A stretch of DNA of 64,000 bases from Thermococcus eurythermalis (GTDB taxonomy: Archaea > Methanobacteriota_B > Thermococci > Thermococcales > Thermococcaceae): assembly GCF_000769655.1 (NCBI RefSeq), contig NZ_CP008887.1, positions 62,001 through 126,000 on the forward strand. Reading direction: 5' to 3'. Every line of letters starts with the position of its first letter. Position 1 is the first letter of the stretch. The translations under genes and the position numbers were made by a program. Positions 15,679 to 23,922 of the stretch are shown piece after piece. The notes below the pieces were generated by a model that saw nothing but the letters and a program-made list of their open reading frames with translations, had not been told where the DNA came from and did not search any database.

Positions 15679-17624
15679 TGGCGAAGGTTACAGACATGGT
15701 GTTGTGGGACAAGCCGGGGGAGAAGGTTCTCCTCCTCGGCAACCAGGCCATAGCACGCGGTGCTCTGGAGGCGAACATAGCGGTTTACGCCGCCTACCCC
15801 GGAACCCCGAGCTCGGAGCTCACTGACACGATGGCCATCGTGGCAAAGAAGGCGGGCGTTTACATGGAGTACTCCACCAACGAGAAGGTCGCCTTTGAGA
15901 CTGCCCTTGCCGCGGCCTGGAGCGGCCTCAGGGCCATGACGGCAATGAAGCACGTCGGACTGAACGTCGCGGCAGATACCTTCATGAGCGCCGTCGGAAT
16001 GGGCGTCGAGGGCGGCTTTGTCATAATGGTCGCCGACGACCCGAGCATGTGGAGCAGCCAGAACGAGCAGGATACGCGTGTTTACGCGAAGTTCGCCAAC
16101 GTCCCGGTTCTTGAGCCCTCCGACCCGCACGAGGCCAAGGAGATGACGAAGTACGCCTTCGAGCTCAGCGAGAAGTTCAAGCACTTTGTCATCCTTAGGA
16201 CAACGACAAGGACTTCCCACGCCCGCGGTGACGTCATCCTTGGGGAACTCCCGGAGGAAATAAAGACCGGCAAGAGGAAGTTCGGCAACTTCAAGAAGGA
16301 CCCGAGCAGGTTCGTGGACGTCCCGGCCAACGCCAGGAAGTTCCACCCGATAATACTCGAGAAGATAGAGAAGATACGCGAGGAGCTCAACGACTGCCCG
16401 TTCAACTGGATAGAGGGCAAGGAAGATGCCAAGGTCGGTATAATCGCCCCCGGCCTCAGCTACGCCTACGTCAAGGAAGCCCTCCACTGGCTCGGTGTTG
16501 AGGACGTCAAGGTTCTCAAGCTCGGAACGCCGTTCCCCGTCCCGTACGGGCTCCTTGAGAAGTTCTTCGACGGCATTGAGAAGGTTCTCATCGTCGAGGA
16601 ACTTGAGCCGGTCGTCGAGGAGCAGGTCAAGACCTGGGCCTACGACAGGGGCATCAGAATTCCAATCCACGGAAAGGACCTCGTGCCGAGGGTCTACGAG
16701 ATGACCACGAGGAGGGCCGTCGAGGCCATAGCCAAGTTCCTCGGTATCCCCACACCGGTCAACTACGAGGAGCTTGACGCAAAGTACAAGAAGGCGCTTG
16801 AGATAGTCCCGCCGAGGCCACCGAGCCTCTGTCCGGCCTGTCCTCACAGGAACAGCTTCTTCGCCATAAAGAAGGCCACCCACTCAAAGGGCATCTACCC
16901 CAGCGACATAGGCTGTTACACCCTCGGTCTCCTGCCGCCGCTCAACGCCGTTGACACCACCGTCGCAATGGGTGCTTCAATAGGCATCGCCCACGGCCTC
17001 AGCGTTGCCCTCAACGGAAGCCTCGCCGAGGAAGAGAGGAAGACCGGCAAGGAGAAGAAGGTCATCGTTGCTACCATCGGTGACTCGACCTTCTACCACA
17101 CCGGACTTCCTGCCCTGGCCAACGCCATCTACAACCGCTCCAACGTGCTCGTCGTCGTCCTCGACAACCTCGTGACGGCAATGACCGGCGACCAGCCCAA
17201 CCCGAGCACCGGCCAGACTCCGCACGGTGAGGGTAGGAGGATACCAATAGAGGACGTCGCCAAGGCGATGGGTGCCGACTTCGTTGCCGTCGTCGACCCA
17301 TACGACATAAAGGCCACCTACGAGACCATAAAGAAGGCCCTTGAGGTTGATGGCGTCAGCGTCGTCGTCACGAGGCAGATCTGTGCCCTCTACAGGATAG
17401 GCCAGATGAGAAGGAAGGGAGAGAAGTGGCCAATCTACTACGTGGACGAGGAGAAGTGTACCGGCTGTAAGATATGTATCAACGCCTACGGCTGTCCGGC
17501 AATCTACTGGGACGAGGAGAAGAAGCAGGCGAGAATAGAGCCGAGCATGTGCTGGGGCTGTGGAGGCTGTGCTCAGATCTGTCCGTTTGGAGCCTTTAAG
17601 CCCGTAGAGGGGGGAGAAGAATGA
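15678..17624 (+). CDS. iorA: Indolepyruvate:ferredoxin oxidoreductase, alpha subunit
   Basis: A 648-residue subunit that oxidatively decarboxylates aryl pyruvates from aromatic amino acids to aryl-acetyl-CoA, reducing ferredoxin. Domains: N-terminal pyrimidine-binding ([31 protein letters not shown]), C-terminal TPP-binding ([39 protein letters not shown]), and two [4Fe-4S] motifs ([14 protein letters not shown] and [12 protein letters not shown]). ATG 15678 has GGAGGTG 7 nt upstream. It overlaps iorB by 4 bp. Confidence 0.95.
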
Positions 17625-18229
17625 AGGAGTATAACATTGTCATCACCGGTGTCGGCGGCCAGGGTGTCCTTACGGCCGCAAACATCCTCGGTTGGGCCGC
17701 CCTTCACGCCGGCCACAAGGTCAGGATGGGTGAAGTTCACGGCATGAGCCAGCGCTTTGGTAGCGTCGTCTCTTACGTCCGCTTCGGTGAGGAAGTCTAC
17801 GGCTCGATGGTTCCTGAAGGAAAGGGCGACGTTATCCTCGCTTTTGAGCCTGTCGAGGCGCTCCGCTACATCAACTACCTCAAGGAGGGCGGAATGGTCG
17901 TCGTGAACACCAAGCCCATCGTCCCGGTCCAGGTCTCGATGGGCAAGGCCCGCTACCCCGAGCTCGAAGAAATCAGGAAGATAGTCGAGGAGGACTTCAA
18001 GGCCAAGTGGATAGGCTTCAACGCCGAGGAGCTCGCCATAAAGGCCGGCCACGTCGTAACTACTAACACCGTCCTCATCGGTGCCCTGACCCAGATTCCG
18101 GAGTTCCCGCTTGACGCGGAGCACGTTAGAGATGTCATAAGGCTCAGCGTCCCGCCAAAGGCCGTCGAGATGAACATGAAGGCCTTCGACCTCGGTGTCC
18201 AGGCCGCTAAGGAGATTCTGGGGCTTTAA
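17621..18229 (+). CDS. iorB: Indolepyruvate:ferredoxin oxidoreductase, beta subunit
   Basis: A 202-residue gamma-type 2-oxoacid oxidoreductase domain that completes the enzyme with IorA. Motifs: [20 protein letters not shown] at the N-terminus, [19 protein letters not shown], and [20 protein letters not shown]. Length is typical. It overlaps iorA (ATGA), which supports equimolar expression. A hairpin plus T-run spans its stop codon. Confidence 0.95.
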
Positions 18230-18283: not shown

Positions 18284-19906
18284 GTGGAGTGCATAGAGGG
18301 GAAGGAGATAACATCAACCAAAAGCGGATGCTGGACGTTTTCAGACGGCGAGCGGTGGTATCTCTTTGAGTGGGTTGATTACCTGCTTAAACCTGAAATT
18401 GACACAGATGAAGTTCTCGTTGGCAAAATACCGGCGACAAAATTGAGAAATGGGCAGTTCTTGATTTCATTCAAAAACTTCATCGGGGAGACCGAGATAA
18501 CGGGTGTTAAAAACGGGGAAATCGTCTTTAAACGTCCTGTGAAGGTTCTTTCGCTCAAATTTTCGAAAATATATCCTAACGTCTTTGCTTCTATGAATGG
18601 ACACGGAATAACACGCTTCTCAAAAGTCCAAGATTTGTTTGTGGGGCGACTCATTGAGGATGTAATAAAGCACTCCCTCTCAATGCCCTTCCAGCTGGAA
18701 TCGCCAACGGGCTTTGCAGTGGAAGAAAGCGATGAGCCCGTAAACGAGCTCTTTGCTTACCATTACCTCCGCTCAAACAAAACTCGAATCATCGAGGCCT
18801 TTGAGATAGTCGTGCACAGAATGAAACGAGAACTTAGAGTGGAGGAAGAGTGGCTAAGGCCAGATGAGGTCGACGAAGTAACCCCAGAAACGCTGATTTC
18901 AATCACCGAACACCCGGAATATCTGGCACCGGCTGGAGAGGGTGTTCTTGTGGCGAGATACCTGAACGGCTACGTGCCCACCAAAGTTCTCGGAAGTAGA
19001 AAGTACAAGAGCTTTGACACCCCAGAGAACAGGTTTGCAAAGCATTTTCTTGGTATTCTTATCGAGTGGAGTGAGAGGGTAATAAACGCCTTCGAGAACG
19101 GAAAAAAGGCTGACCTGAAGCTCATTAGGGAGCTCCTTGAAGAGCTTGAGTTCGTTAGAAGCGATGACATCTGGGAAGAAATAGGGGACATGACGCTATT
19201 CCCATATACTTCACAAACTCTACTGAAGGGCGACGGCTACCGTGACCTGCTTGAGCTGTATAGGGAGTTCACGGCGTACTCGCCTTTCTTCGAGGGGCTT
19301 CAAAAGGCAATAGACAACAGGGACATAGCGAAGCTCTACGAGTACTGGGCTTTCTTCAGGCTCGTGGAGGAACTTGGCAGAGTCCTTGGGAAGAAGGACA
19401 TCCGCATCGTTGTCACACCCGCGGGGGAGTTATCAGAAAGCGGAGACGTTTACGCACAATTTGACAATGGCCGGAGGCTCTACTACAACAAAAGGCTAAT
19501 CCCAAGGAAGTGGAGCTACTCCGTGACTCTGAGGCCAGACTTCTCGCTGTTTACTGGTGATCCTGACGAAACTGGAACAGAGCTCGTTGGGGTCTTCGAC
19601 GCGAAGTTCAAGCTTGATGTAGTTGATGAACCCAAGGAAATCGAGGGCTTTGACAAAGAAGACGAGGAAGCAGAGAGGAGTAGAAACTACACGACGTGGG
19701 CAAAGCTTGAGGACATTTACAAGATGCACACCTACAGGGACGCTTTAAGGTGTAATTTCGCGGTGGTGCTGTATCCGGGAAGGAGGAGTGTGTTTTTTGA
19801 TATTGACAAAGGTAGATTAAGTGGGAGTTTTGATTTTAGCAGTCTTTTGTCCAGAGATTTGAAGGGTGTTGGATATATTAGGGTGGCACCGGAGGTGAAA
19901 CTGTGA
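18284..19906 (+). CDS. McrC-like DUF2357 / PD-(D/E)XK nuclease protein
   Basis: A 540-residue protein. The long N-terminal part resembles DUF2357: IPATKLRNGQFLISFKNFIG, then a helical part including FDTPENRFAKHFLGILIEW. The C-terminal domain carries a PD-(D/E)XK nuclease core: RPDF (Asp about 419), then GVFDAKFKL (Asp about 439, Lys about 441), then YKMHTYRDAL. This is the layout of McrC-family nucleases that pair with McrB-like motors to cut modified DNA. GTG 18284 is the only good start. It overlaps the McrB-like gene (GTGA). Order nuclease-then-motor is the reverse of E. coli mcrBC. Its codon use is more AT-rich than the IOR genes next to it. Confidence 0.75.
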   Translation: MECIEGKEITSTKSGCWTFSDGERWYLFEWVDYLLKPEIDTDEVLVGKIPATKLRNGQFLISFKNFIGETEITGVKNGEIVFKRPVKVLSLKFSKIYPNVFASMNGHGITRFSKVQDLFVGRLIEDVIKHSLSMPFQLESPTGFAVEESDEPVNELFAYHYLRSNKTRIIEAFEIVVHRMKRELRVEEEWLRPDEVDEVTPETLISITEHPEYLAPAGEGVLVARYLNGYVPTKVLGSRKYKSFDTPENRFAKHFLGILIEWSERVINAFENGKKADLKLIRELLEELEFVRSDDIWEEIGDMTLFPYTSQTLLKGDGYRDLLELYREFTAYSPFFEGLQKAIDNRDIAKLYEYWAFFRLVEELGRVLGKKDIRIVVTPAGELSESGDVYAQFDNGRRLYYNKRLIPRKWSYSVTLRPDFSLFTGDPDETGTELVGVFDAKFKLDVVDEPKEIEGFDKEDEEAERSRNYTTWAKLEDIYKMHTYRDALRCNFAVVLYPGRRSVFFDIDKGRLSGSFDFSSLLSRDLKGVGYIRVAPEVKL

Positions 19907-21732
19907 ACGAAGAAGTTTTAGAAGCAATCCTAAGGAAAGAACGAGAAAAATACCATGAAGAATGGAAAGAAAAACGAAACAGTATTCTTCAAAACGTAGA
20001 GAGATTGAGAGACTTTGCCAAAAAAGACCACATTACAGGAGAAGACGTGAAGCATATTCATAGTAGTATTACAAAAGAGTTAAAGCTTCTGACTGGGGTT
20101 GAAATTATATGGACTTGGGGCGGGAAAGGTGCGAAAGTTGAAGAGTTCTTTAGCAGACCGGGCTTCAGAAACCTTCTTTTAAAAGCAGAGAAAATTGAAA
20201 ACGTAGACGACGCTGAGGAACTTCAAGAACTTTTAATCAAAGTAATCAAAGGGAGACACACTAAGCTATCAACCGTTAGCTCTTGGCTTTGTGTAATGAA
20301 CCCCAAAGTGTTTTATCCTATGCACAAACAAACTCTACCAAAACAAGTCAGAGAAAAGATTGGAATAAGGAAAATCTGGGGTGGAAACACGAATGAAAGG
20401 AGCATACAGGAATATATGACTTTTCTAAAAACTATCAACAAGATTAACAAGAAGCTTGGAATCGAAACTATGATTGAGAGTGCGTTTTACTTGAGCAGAT
20501 TTAGGGGTTCAGATAATAACAGGGGACCTCAAAAAAGAACTATAGGAAGGTATCTCTCATACAGAGGTTACTTTTATTCCCAACACCTCGTCTCCCAGTT
20601 CTATACGGCACTCAAAACCAAGGGCTTTGTAATCCTCTCGGGCCTGACGGGAACCGGAAAGACAAAGATAGCGCAGGAGCTCGCGGAACTCCTCGATGAC
20701 TCTAAGAAAAACCTCCTGTTCCTCCCCGTCCGCCCGGACTGGAGAGACTCAAAAGCATTGCTCGGATATTACAATCCGCTGACTGGAGAATATCAAAGAA
20801 CACAACTGCTCGACTTTATCTTAAAAGCTATCGAGGACTACGATAAAAACCGTGAGAACGCCATGCCCTACTTCGTTATTCTCGACGAAATGAACCTTGC
20901 CCACGTCGAGTACTACTTCGCTGACTTCCTCAGCGTCCTTGAGAGTGGGAGAGACGATGATGGATTCACAAGGGAACCCATACCGCTCCACGAGGTTGGG
21001 AAGGTTGAAAAAGAACAGGAGATTCCAAGGGAACTCAAACTCCCACCAAACCTTTACATCATCGGAACCGTGAACATGGACGAGACCACTTACTCATTCA
21101 GCCCGAAGGTTCTGGACAGAGCTTTCGTTGTAGAGTTCCATGACGTTGACCTCGAAAACTACCCATCACAGGATTCGGAGTCTGAGTTATCCCCAGAAAC
21201 TATTAACGCCTTGAAAGGCCTCATACTGGACGACCTTCGCGGCGAAAAGGGCAAATTCCTCGCCCGTTCAAAGGAAGAGGCAAACAAAGCAGTCAGAGAG
21301 CTAAAAGGTACAGAGTACTGGAGAGTTCTCGCTGAACTTAACGGGGTCCTTGAACCCTACGATATGCACTTCGGCTATCGCGTCGTTGATGAGATTGCGC
21401 TGTTTTTCCAGAGCGCCAAGGAGAGCCAGGACAAAGGCATCGTGGAATTCAGGGATGATGACGAAATCTTCGACCTCGCACTCCTGATGAAAGTTCTCCC
21501 GAAGTTCCACGGGAACAGGAAGAAGCTCGAAGAGCCTTTGAAAGCCATCTTAAAGCTGTGCCTCTCAGAGAACGCGAAAACCAGAGTTCAAGACCTTGGA
21601 AGGAAAGCTGTTCTAAGCATGCTCAAAAACTGGGAAAAGGAAAAAGAAAACTTCCGCTTCAAACACACGGCCAGGAAAGTCCTCCGCATGCTCCGCCAGC
21701 TATACGAGATAGGCTTCGCGAGCTTCAGCTGA
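19903..21732 (+). CDS. McrB-like AAA+ NTPase with an unrecognised N-terminal domain
   Basis: A 609-residue protein. The AAA+ domain (from about residue 225) has Walker A GLTGTGKT (247-254), Walker B YFVILDEMNLAHVEYYFADF, and the McrB-type block IIGTVNMDETTYSFSPKVLD followed by RAFVVEF, typical of GTP-using McrB motors. The first about 215 residues contain IIWTWGGKGAK, SWLCVMNPKVFYPMHKQT and IRKIWGGNTNE, presumably the specificity domain; I do not recognise the fold. DNA up to about 20,580 is clearly AT-rich (AAA, AGA, ATA codons), while the AAA part has ordinary composition, suggesting domain exchange. GTG 19903 has GGAGGTG upstream and overlaps the McrC-like stop. Confidence 0.8.
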   Translation: MNEEVLEAILRKEREKYHEEWKEKRNSILQNVERLRDFAKKDHITGEDVKHIHSSITKELKLLTGVEIIWTWGGKGAKVEEFFSRPGFRNLLLKAEKIENVDDAEELQELLIKVIKGRHTKLSTVSSWLCVMNPKVFYPMHKQTLPKQVREKIGIRKIWGGNTNERSIQEYMTFLKTINKINKKLGIETMIESAFYLSRFRGSDNNRGPQKRTIGRYLSYRGYFYSQHLVSQFYTALKTKGFVILSGLTGTGKTKIAQELAELLDDSKKNLLFLPVRPDWRDSKALLGYYNPLTGEYQRTQLLDFILKAIEDYDKNRENAMPYFVILDEMNLAHVEYYFADFLSVLESGRDDDGFTREPIPLHEVGKVEKEQEIPRELKLPPNLYIIGTVNMDETTYSFSPKVLDRAFVVEFHDVDLENYPSQDSESELSPETINALKGLILDDLRGEKGKFLARSKEEANKAVRELKGTEYWRVLAELNGVLEPYDMHFGYRVVDEIALFFQSAKESQDKGIVEFRDDDEIFDLALLMKVLPKFHGNRKKLEEPLKAILKLCLSENAKTRVQDLGRKAVLSMLKNWEKEKENFRFKHTARKVLRMLRQLYEIGFASFS

Positions 21733-21750
21733 CATTTATTTTTTCCAAAA
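21733..21750 (+). terminator. T-rich terminator after the McrB-like gene
   Basis: CATTTATTTTTTCC follows the stop codon without a clear stem, ending the two-gene unit before the separate ATPase promoter (CCCTTATAAC, 21751-21760). Confidence 0.5.
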
Positions 21751-21759
21751 CCCTTATAA

Positions 21760-21794
21760 CTTACCCCGGGGTAAGTAACTTACGGTGGGATAAG
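21760..21794. repeat. Paired 16-bp palindromes bordering the start of ATPase copy 2
   Basis: Box A CTTACCCCGGGGTAAG (21760-21775) is a perfect palindrome. After TAA comes box B CTTACGGTGGGATAAG (21779-21794), an imperfect palindrome ending one base before the TTG start. The TATA box CCCTTATAAC abuts box A. Box A recurs at 22886-22901 in the same orientation (15 of 16 identical). Box B recurs inverted at 22905-22920 (15 of 16). Centre spacing is 19 bp at both ends. Confidence 0.8.
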
Positions 21795-22919
21795 TTGCTG
21801 TTCGACCTCCAGCCAAAGAGGAGAAGGGAAGACCTCTACGATAGGGAGGAAGAGCTCAAGGAGTTTTCCGAAGCCATTGAGCTTGGGGAAACGCTAATCC
21901 TTCTGCTCGGCATCAGGAGACTCGGCAAAAGCTCCCTCCTCAATGTTGCTCTCTCTGAGTCCGGAAAGCCGTTCTCCAAGATTGACGTTCGCTCGCTCTA
22001 CTTCACCCATGGCTCGATTCCCCAGGAGCTGCTCGCGAGAAAACTCCTCGAAGGCCTTCTCAAGTCTCTGAAGGGAAGAGACAAAGTGAGGATGGAACTT
22101 GTGAAGGCTCTCTCAAGGATTAAGGGGGTTAAAGTTTCGGGTCTTCAGGTGGAGTTTGATGAAAAGCCCGACCTTGCAGGACTTCTTGAGAGGCTTGACG
22201 CATGGGCCGAGAAAACCGGGAGGAGAGTTATAATCGCCTTCGACGAGGCCCAGTACCTGAGGCTTTCGGGGATACGGTACGATGGGCTCATAGCGTACGC
22301 CGTGGACAACCTGCCGAACCTGACGTTTGTACTGACTGGCTCCGAAGTTGGAATGCTCCACGATTTCATCGGACTCGACGACCCCAAAAAGCCCTTATTT
22401 GGTAGGTACGCGAGGGAAATAACACTGAAGAGGTTTTCGAAGGAGCAGAGCAGGGATTTCCTGAGAAGGGGGTTCGACGAGCTTGGGGTAAAAGTTCAAG
22501 AAGAGGAAATCAAGAAAGCCGTAGAAAAGCTCGACGGCATAGTCGGATGGCTGACCCTTTACGGCTACATAAGAGGAGTTAGAAAGCTCCCCGAAAAAGA
22601 TGCCCTCGATGAGCTCTTTGAACGGGCCAAAGCGCTGGTTCTTGACGAAATCTCGGCCCTCACGAGGTACAGCGCGAGGTACCGGTTCATTCTCAAAGCC
22701 GTTGCCCTTGGAAACAGCTCATGGAGCTCCATAAAGGAGTACGTGGAGTTCAAGGCGGGAAAGATAAACGATGCGAAGTTCTCTGCTCTGTTGAAGAACC
22801 TCGTTAAGTACGGCTACCTTGAAAAGGGTGAAGATGGCTATTCCATTCCTGACCCAGTAGTCAAGGAAGTCATAAAGAGGACCAACTTACCCCAGGGTAA
22901 GCCACTTATCCCCCCGTAA
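21795..22919 (+). CDS. Archaeal ATPase, PF01637-type STAND/AAA family (copy 2)
   Basis: A 374-residue P-loop ATPase paralogous to 318-1415. Shared blocks: FDLQPKRRREDLYDREEEL, Walker A LGIRRLGKSSLL, Walker B VIIAFDEAQYLRLSG, TGSEVGMLHDFIGLDDPKKP, and a C-terminal winged-helix region. Start TTG 21795 is inferred: GGTGG lies 6 nt upstream and the protein then aligns with copy 1 at its second to third residues. Frame-open sequence upstream to 21558 overlaps the McrB-like gene and is not family-like. The last codons (LPQGKPLIPP) lie inside the downstream palindrome pair. Function is unknown. Confidence 0.83.
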   Translation: MLFDLQPKRRREDLYDREEELKEFSEAIELGETLILLLGIRRLGKSSLLNVALSESGKPFSKIDVRSLYFTHGSIPQELLARKLLEGLLKSLKGRDKVRMELVKALSRIKGVKVSGLQVEFDEKPDLAGLLERLDAWAEKTGRRVIIAFDEAQYLRLSGIRYDGLIAYAVDNLPNLTFVLTGSEVGMLHDFIGLDDPKKPLFGRYAREITLKRFSKEQSRDFLRRGFDELGVKVQEEEIKKAVEKLDGIVGWLTLYGYIRGVRKLPEKDALDELFERAKALVLDEISALTRYSARYRFILKAVALGNSSWSSIKEYVEFKAGKINDAKFSALLKNLVKYGYLEKGEDGYSIPDPVVKEVIKRTNLPQGKPLIPP

Positions 22920-22920
22920 G
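22886..22920. repeat. Paired 16-bp palindromes bordering the end of ATPase copy 2
   Basis: CTTACCCCAGGGTAAG (22886-22901), CCA, then CTTATCCCCCCGTAAG (22905-22920). The first matches box A of the upstream site directly; the second is box B inverted. The stop codon TAA (22917-22919) is inside the second box, so the coding frame is bounded by the repeats almost to the base. The convergent HDAC-like gene ends at 22921. Confidence 0.8.
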
Positions 22921-23922
22921 TTAGAACTCCCACCACTCGGAATGTATCTCTTTCACCCTCGCAACGGTTCTGAGCGCCTCGTACGATGGACTGACCGGAA
23001 CCTCGCGGATTTCCCCGCTCAGGTAGCCCCTGATGAACGCGGGAAGACCTTTGTCAAGACCAACCGAGTAGCCACCCTCAAAAACCACCGCCAGCGGATA
23101 GCGCGAAAGAGTTGAACCAGCATAGGCGAAGAAGAGCTCACTCAGTCTTAGCGTTGTTAGATTCTCGCCGAGGAAGCCGTCGAAGCCGGCTGAAATGACA
23201 ACAAGCTTTGGTTTGAACTGGGCCAGTATCGGAAGAACTATTTCGTTCCATGCATAGATGTAGTCATCGTCTCTCGCATAGTGGGGCATCGGCAGGTTTA
23301 TTTTCGTCCCCTCAGCTCCATTACCGCCGACCTCGTATTCATAACCGCTCCACGGATAGATGTCGCGCTCGTGCAGGTCTACGTGGACTACTTTGTTGTC
23401 GTTCCAGAATATCTCCTGCGTCCCGTTGCCGTGGTGGGCGTCGAAGTCTATGACGAGAACCTTCCCGGTGAGCTCCTCGGCGACCTTTGCCGCGTATGCA
23501 GCGTTGTTGAAGATGCAGAAGCCCAGAGTCGGGGCATTAAAGGCCCTGCCCGACCTGCCGGCGTGATGGCCGGGAGGCCTGACGAGGGCAAGGTAGAGGC
23601 CCTTTCTCTTTAAAGCCATCTCGACAGCCGTCCGCGAGGCCCCAAATGCGAGGAGAGAAGCCTCCCATGTGCCCGGGGAGACGTAGGTGTCCGGGTCAAG
23701 GTAGGAGAATTTTATGCTTCTCTCCCTGACAAGCTCAACGTAGTCCTCTGTGTGGACGGTCAGAAGCTCTTCCTCAGGTACGGGGCTGGGCTCAATTGGC
23801 TTCCACAGGCCCAAACGCTGGAGAGCCTTTATGGCCCGCAGCAGCCTGCCGGGGTTCTCGGGGTGGTAGTTTTCAGGCCTATGTTCAAGAAAAACCGGGG
23901 AATAAATTACTGAAAAGGCCAA
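22921..23922 (-). CDS. Histone deacetylase-fold (HDAC / AcuC / APAH) amidohydrolase
   Basis: A 333-residue Zn-dependent amidohydrolase of the HDAC superfamily. Catalytic motifs: LVRPPGHHAGRSG (His pair), VLVIDFDAHHGNGTQEIFW (Asp-His ligands), VVISAGFDGFLGENLTTLRL (Asp ligand), and a late VFEGGYSV. Archaeal members deacetylate polyamines or other small amines, or possibly proteins; sequence alone does not decide. TTG 23922 has GGTGAGG 5 nt upstream. The gene follows tbp at 6 bp, so they share a transcript. Confidence 0.88.
   Translation of the reverse strand: MAFSVIYSPVFLEHRPENYHPENPGRLLRAIKALQRLGLWKPIEPSPVPEEELLTVHTEDYVELVRERSIKFSYLDPDTYVSPGTWEASLLAFGASRTAVEMALKRKGLYLALVRPPGHHAGRSGRAFNAPTLGFCIFNNAAYAAKVAEELTGKVLVIDFDAHHGNGTQEIFWNDNKVVHVDLHERDIYPWSGYEYEVGGNGAEGTKINLPMPHYARDDDYIYAWNEIVLPILAQFKPKLVVISAGFDGFLGENLTTLRLSELFFAYAGSTLSRYPLAVVFEGGYSVGLDKGLPAFIRGYLSGEIREVPVSPSYEALRTVARVKEIHSEWWEF

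Follow-up and report, generated by a model that had tools for sequence, protein, structure and literature searches.

A STAND-type ATPase gene of Thermococcus eurythermalis is preceded by a palindrome pair that probably serves as its own operator, with a second, optional pair at its stop codon

The DNA analysed here, called the window throughout, is a stretch of 64,000 nt from Thermococcus eurythermalis (assembly GCF_000769655.1, contig NZ_CP008887.1, positions 62,001-126,000, forward strand). All coordinates count from its first letter as position 1, and the locus under study occupies 21760-22920. The locus and its surroundings carry the following features:

17621-18229, plus strand: indolepyruvate oxidoreductase subunit beta (IOR beta; NCBIfam NF005326, E 7.5e-119)
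18284-19906, plus strand: McrC-like protein (DUF2357 and PD-(D/E)XK; Pfam PF09823 and PF04411)
19903-21732, plus strand: McrB-like AAA_5 protein (Pfam PF07728; PADLOC PDC-M26A, 3.2e-54)
21745-21759, plus strand: BRE/TATA element CCAAAACCCTTATAA, a promoter as predicted from its sequence
21760-21775, plus strand: upstream box A, CTTACCCCGGGGTAAG, a perfect palindrome between the TATA element and the expected transcription start
21779-21794, plus strand: upstream box B, CTTACGGTGGGATAAG, reaching from the expected transcription start to the start codon
21795-22919, plus strand: PF01637 (STAND/AAA+) ATPase of box group A, TTG start, 374 aa (Pfam, structure homologues, fold match)
22677-22844, plus strand: predicted C-terminal winged-helix domain of the ATPase, residues 295-350 (PF21100, AlphaFold2 model, covariation)
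22886-22901, plus strand: downstream box 1, CTTACCCCAGGGTAAG (sequence, box scan, comparison of related genes)
22905-22920, plus strand: downstream box 2, CTTATCCCCCCGTAAG, with the stop codon inside (same three sources)
22921-23922, minus strand: histone-deacetylase-family protein (HDAC), the convergent right neighbour (Pfam PF00850, 2e-72)

Direct reading of the letters confirms, to the base, the four 16-bp palindromes described in an earlier sequence-only reading of the window, including the 19-bp centre spacing at both gene ends and the relation between the two pairs, in which box A is repeated directly (15/16) and box B in inverted orientation (15/16). The upstream pair runs directly into the TTG start at 21795, with 0 bases between, and upstream box B contains GGTGGG, which resembles a ribosome-binding sequence and would act as the Shine-Dalgarno (SD) element close to the predicted transcription start. 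The last box contains the stop codon TAA (22917-22919), so that residues 364-374 (NLPQGKPLIPP) are encoded by box sequence, and the stop of the HDAC gene abuts the same box. A scan for CTTACN6GTAAG with at most one mismatch finds only four sites in the 64 kb, all of them the boxes, where 1.17 are expected; since 5 of 100 shuffles of the window also reach four sites, this count alone is not significant, and the case for the boxes rests on their position and conservation.

The ATPase belongs to PF01637 (ATPase_2), scoring 61.6 bits against a curated cut-off of 33.2 (E 1.2e-16), and contains a Walker A motif (GIRRLGKSS) and a Walker B motif (IIAFDEAQ), with invariant columns in A1. Two proteins of solved structure are homologous over the full length and share the fold with its C-terminal winged helix, PABY2304 of Pyrococcus abyssi (2qen, 3.4e-72) and SSO1545 of Sulfolobus (2fna, 9.9e-52). 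These two also lead the fold search, followed by Cdc6/Orc1 on origin DNA, with MalT and CED-4 lower. The C-terminus matches the winged helix PF21100 (33 bits versus 27), and the AlphaFold2 model places helices at 295-304, 310-321 and 326-338 ahead of a strand pair, the helix-helix-helix-strand-strand order. The third helix, about 326-338, is the predicted recognition helix, and residues 325-328 at its beginning (NDAK in the window ATPase) are specific to the box group.

The McrBC-like pair (18284-21732) between IOR beta and the ATPase is present in some genomes and absent from others at the same locus, so the ATPase is not all that this intergenic site gains and loses. In genomes that lack McrBC, IOR beta is the left neighbour of the locus, and it adjoins the box pair or HDAC in L132, L146, L155, L190, L207, L210 and L211. 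Because McrBC adjoins the ATPase, membership of the latter in a defence system was considered and rejected: its PADLOC matches are weak (2.4e-5), and many ATPase loci lack McrBC.

The genome-wide work consisted of pattern searches. Of the 13 PF01637 matches in the genome of origin, five form one subfamily, and all five of these genes have two tandem palindromes between TATA element and start codon, every one with a different sequence. The survey of gene ends that had been proposed for Thermococcales covered 94 Thermococcaceae genomes and 114 fetched genes, 113 of them intact; the upstream pair stands at the same position before essentially every intact gene, and the downstream pair proves optional. 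The common layout is BRE-TATA, box A, 3 bp, box B and start codon, and the promoter element cgAAACccTTATAA is conserved across groups A, C and E. Box B is less palindromic than box A and always has a G-rich core of the ribosome-binding type, which would account for its departure from symmetry. Within group E, some genes (L060, L062, L064, L067) carry ACG or CTG, rather than a standard start codon, at the conserved site; translation of these genes may actually begin at a GTG within box B.

The boxes fall into five groups, listed here with the residues at positions 325-328, which are nearly fixed within each group:

Group A: CTTACCCC/GGGGTAAG; NDAK
Group B: CTTGCAGGGGTGCAAG; NDSN
Group C: CTTATGCCCCCGTAAG; PEPR
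Group D: GTATCGGTACCGATAC; TNAR
Group E: AACTWCTG...GTAGTT; ADSV

These groups coincide with clades of the protein tree, requiring four changes, the minimum, against a mean of 66.6 when shuffled. The box sequence covaries with the residues that open the predicted recognition helix; this is a correlation only, and the clade specificity is partly a consequence of the linkage between gene and promoter. Genus-wide scans with the exact box cores return almost only ATPase genes or the scars that such genes have left. A conserved palindromic site at a gene's own promoter is what is expected of an autoregulated transcription factor, and an operator was among the functions suggested by the sequence-only reading. 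For the upstream pair, its universality, its place between TATA and start codon, its clade specificity and its covariation with the recognition helix strongly support such a role at the level of sequence comparison.

Paired boxes also occur outside the subfamily. Searching more widely brought up relatives in Pyrodictiaceae, other Desulfurococcales, Sulfolobales, Bathyarchaeota, Heimdallarchaeota, Thermotogae and Caldisericum, and in most of these relatives a pair of boxes with its own sequence stands directly before the start codon. The paired-box statistic lies above all shuffles in 58 of 69 distant relatives, and 0 of the control windows farther upstream reach its median. In the genome of origin, two paralogues of a different subfamily (L002, L003) likewise have paired palindromes of their own sequence before the start codon, with scores reached by 0 and 1 of 200 shuffles, respectively, and four other PF01637 paralogues (L001, L006, L010, L011) show no paired boxes by the same shuffle test. 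Three Pyrococcus genomes have 14-19 PF01637 matches each (L298-L326), with many private upstream boxes and several broken genes. Apparently at least three tandem boxes, rather than two, are found in L225, L227, L228 and, upstream of the gene, L250. Relatives on Thermotogae-labelled contigs (L245, L260, L263, L268, L271, L281), some of them with paired boxes like those of archaea, could reflect transfer from archaea or a binning error.

Two other roles for palindromes in this position are very improbable. As transcript-level elements, the boxes would form RNA hairpins that terminate transcription or mask the SD sequence, and they do overlap the 5' leader and the stop codon. However, box B folds as RNA no better than shuffled sequence (z 0.17 to -1.2), which argues for a site at the level of DNA and led us to drop the hairpin idea; moreover, the expected transcript would begin only after box A, and the orientation of the downstream boxes varies. 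Equally improbable is that the ATPase acts on the boxes as a centromere or origin, a partition-like role that the sequence-only reading had also raised. Initiator genes can adjoin their own boxes, and the fold resembles that of Cdc6/Orc1, next after the protein's own family. Yet the genes are chromosomal and patchily distributed, with several paralogues and different boxes per chromosome; the boxes are tied to the gene's own promoter; and no copies on plasmids were found. Of the ParA/ParB pair and centromere repeats on a replicon that would mark a ParABS-like system, no ParB partner is seen among the flanking genes tested.

The downstream pair has a narrower distribution. Counting a match as at least 9 of 10 outer bases, at least one own-type box is present at the stop codon in 38 of 113 genes, about a third, and two in 22 of 113; own-box matches occupy 60 of 10,128 positions at the gene ends versus 35 of 504,490 control positions. 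Most group A genes, about half of group B and some of group C have such boxes, and none of the group D or E genes among the 113 does. Absence beside close orthologues would have spoken against the gene-end boxes, but the orthologues next to HDAC mostly have one or two. The downstream boxes match the upstream boxes of their own gene, and four genes (L019, L020, L036, L093) repeat their upstream pair as a direct copy at the downstream end, SD-like box B included. Among distant members, L230, L261, L264 (Bathyarchaeota), L266, L269 and L270 have boxes near the stop that resemble their own upstream ones. On the tree, presence of the downstream pair changes about 11 times, which points to an optional element that has been repeatedly gained or lost, the tree being unable to tell gain from loss.

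A regulatory use of the second pair can be imagined, in which it is an auxiliary operator and the ATPase, bound at both ends, closes a loop of about 1.1 kb that would tighten autorepression or block convergent transcription. The shared specificity and 19-bp spacing of the two pairs are consistent with such a loop, as are the retention of outer bases while the centres vary and the recurrence of downstream boxes in separate groups, even in one Bathyarchaeota member. We nevertheless regard looping as rather unlikely: besides groups D and E, many B and C genes do without the downstream pair, as do about 30 Pyrococcus paralogues examined, in which the upstream pairs are present; the pair comes or goes about as often as counted above; and the conservation of the outer bases is partly biased by the way in which boxes were selected.

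The box-core scans also find single pairs that have no ATPase beside them. A look for empty sites, as had been suggested, revealed precise junctions with one copy of the site, as would be expected for a gene cassette, in L130/L136, L152, L183 and L159. In G016 and G022 (L130 and L136), TATA element, box A, spacer, box and right flank follow in order, with left and right flanks 95% and 90% identical to those of the filled locus L046. In G051 (L152), compared with the window and L050, McrB is followed by the TATA element and one pair that run straight into the HDAC gene. The two group B sites, G071 (L183) compared with L031 and G014 (L159) compared with L036, show the same arrangement, but with a left flank that is less similar near the junction. 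At the HDAC locus of 30 genomes, 15 sites are filled, one has an internally deleted ATPase, four have one intact pair and no ATPase, four have decayed boxes, four have a clean IOR-HDAC junction and two lie in another context. The group A ATPase is absent from G018, G043 and G062, which have one pair with intact boxes, so persistence of the boxes does not strictly depend on the gene. In L190, CTTATAAG at the HDAC stop resembles a box with its centre deleted, possibly a late scar. The junctions indicate that gene loss is precise between start and end pairs and leaves one pair, often together with the former promoter; because the promoter is left behind, we infer loss rather than gain.

The gene bodies have a history partly separate from that of their surroundings. 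L046 and L070 have flanks 94 and 92% identical around ATPases of 80% identity, and the ATPases of L088 and L106 are 96% identical within flanks of 79-83%. In group D, approximately unbiased (AU) tests clearly contradict the idea that gene and flanks share one history (p 1.3e-5, 3.6e-6 and 7.6e-11), and in group A the result is moderate (p 0.013; reciprocal flank test p 0.107), all p-values being somewhat generous because the tested clades were chosen after the identities had been seen. These comparisons indicate horizontal exchange of ATPase genes at fixed loci. The orthologous groups mostly stay at one address, with two main loci for group C and several for group B.

The empty sites and the exchange at fixed loci bear out part of the suggestion that the gene is a mobile unit. 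As a movable cassette, the gene and one pair would excise and re-enter single-pair docking sites, the pairs being att-like and the ATPase perhaps taking part. Shifts of identity near the ends of swapped gene bodies fit such movement, as do the four downstream pairs that copy the SD-bearing box B, useless at a gene end. Other observations speak against mobility in the usual sense: a profile search finds no recombinase domain, and the ATPase is the only gene inside the repeats; the copies do not sit at many unrelated sites, nor is there the transposase that a transposon would carry between its repeats; no homologous copy appears on the plasmids, phages or viral contigs searched; and group D genes are swapped without downstream pairs, so exchange needs none. 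Ordinary recombination between the repeats and between the flanks would be enough, and we consider the cassette unlikely. Less likely still is a combined form, in which the operator doubles as an att-like recombination site and recombinase-free cassettes enter, leave and replace one another at docking scars, possibly aided by the ATPase.

Most probably, the upstream pair serves as a tandem operator dedicated to a self-regulating STAND-type winged-helix ATPase, and the downstream pair is an optional addition that enables precise loss of the gene. The ATPase would bind the two palindromes of its own gene through its C-terminal winged helix, at box A between the TATA element and the expected transcription start and at box B over that start and the ribosome-binding site, and would thereby shut its own promoter until a change driven by ATP or a ligand releases it. 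The recognition helix would set the operator specificity, with a half-site private to each paralogue, so that several self-regulated ATPases may share a genome without cross-talk. The downstream pair would be a second copy of the same site, arising or lost repeatedly, perhaps with some regulatory benefit, and its presence would make the gene repeat-bounded. Recombination or slippage between the pairs could then remove the gene precisely and leave as a scar one pair, usually with the promoter, and ATPase alleles would also be swapped in place between species. Polymerases of P. abyssi are reported to slip on hairpin-bearing templates (PMC4134008), and by analogy slippage at hairpins is a plausible aid to gene loss.

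The arrangement had been thought undescribed for PF01637-type ATPases, and a literature search with limited coverage of subscription journals found no account of it. For PABY2304, which carries the group C helix residues PEPR, and for SSO1545, the search, with the SSO1545 structure paper outside its coverage, returned no description of operators or gene-end boxes. The AAA+ domain of mycobacterial IniR is predicted to be similar to SSO1545 (PMC5760070). Like the window ATPase, IniR and MalT (STAND-type) join an ATPase to a DNA-binding domain, and they control a promoter; however, they are multi-domain proteins that regulate other genes, whereas the window ATPase consists of AAA+ and winged helix only and has boxes only at its own gene. 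It would resemble a STAND autoregulated repressor of the MalT and IniR kind, except that it would regulate itself from dedicated operators private to each paralogue. Cdc6/Orc1 on origin DNA (2qby) likewise combines AAA+ with a winged helix, but the similarity to the window ATPase is low (TM-score 0.47, 18% identity) and indicates no origin role. The lac and gal looping repressors use auxiliary operators, one at the promoter and one distant, and so also have two operators for one protein; unlike theirs, the distal pair here lies at the stop codon, is not always present and goes together with precise loss of the gene.

Hyperthermophilic archaea have a strongly expanded set of PF01637 STAND ATPases, which are uncharacterised. 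The boxes give each ATPase a predicted DNA target, and hence each genome several candidate regulator-operator pairs. If confirmed, these pairs would form a natural series from which winged-helix specificity at high temperature could be decoded, and the copies at the gene ends would connect a regulator's operator with the precise loss of its own gene.
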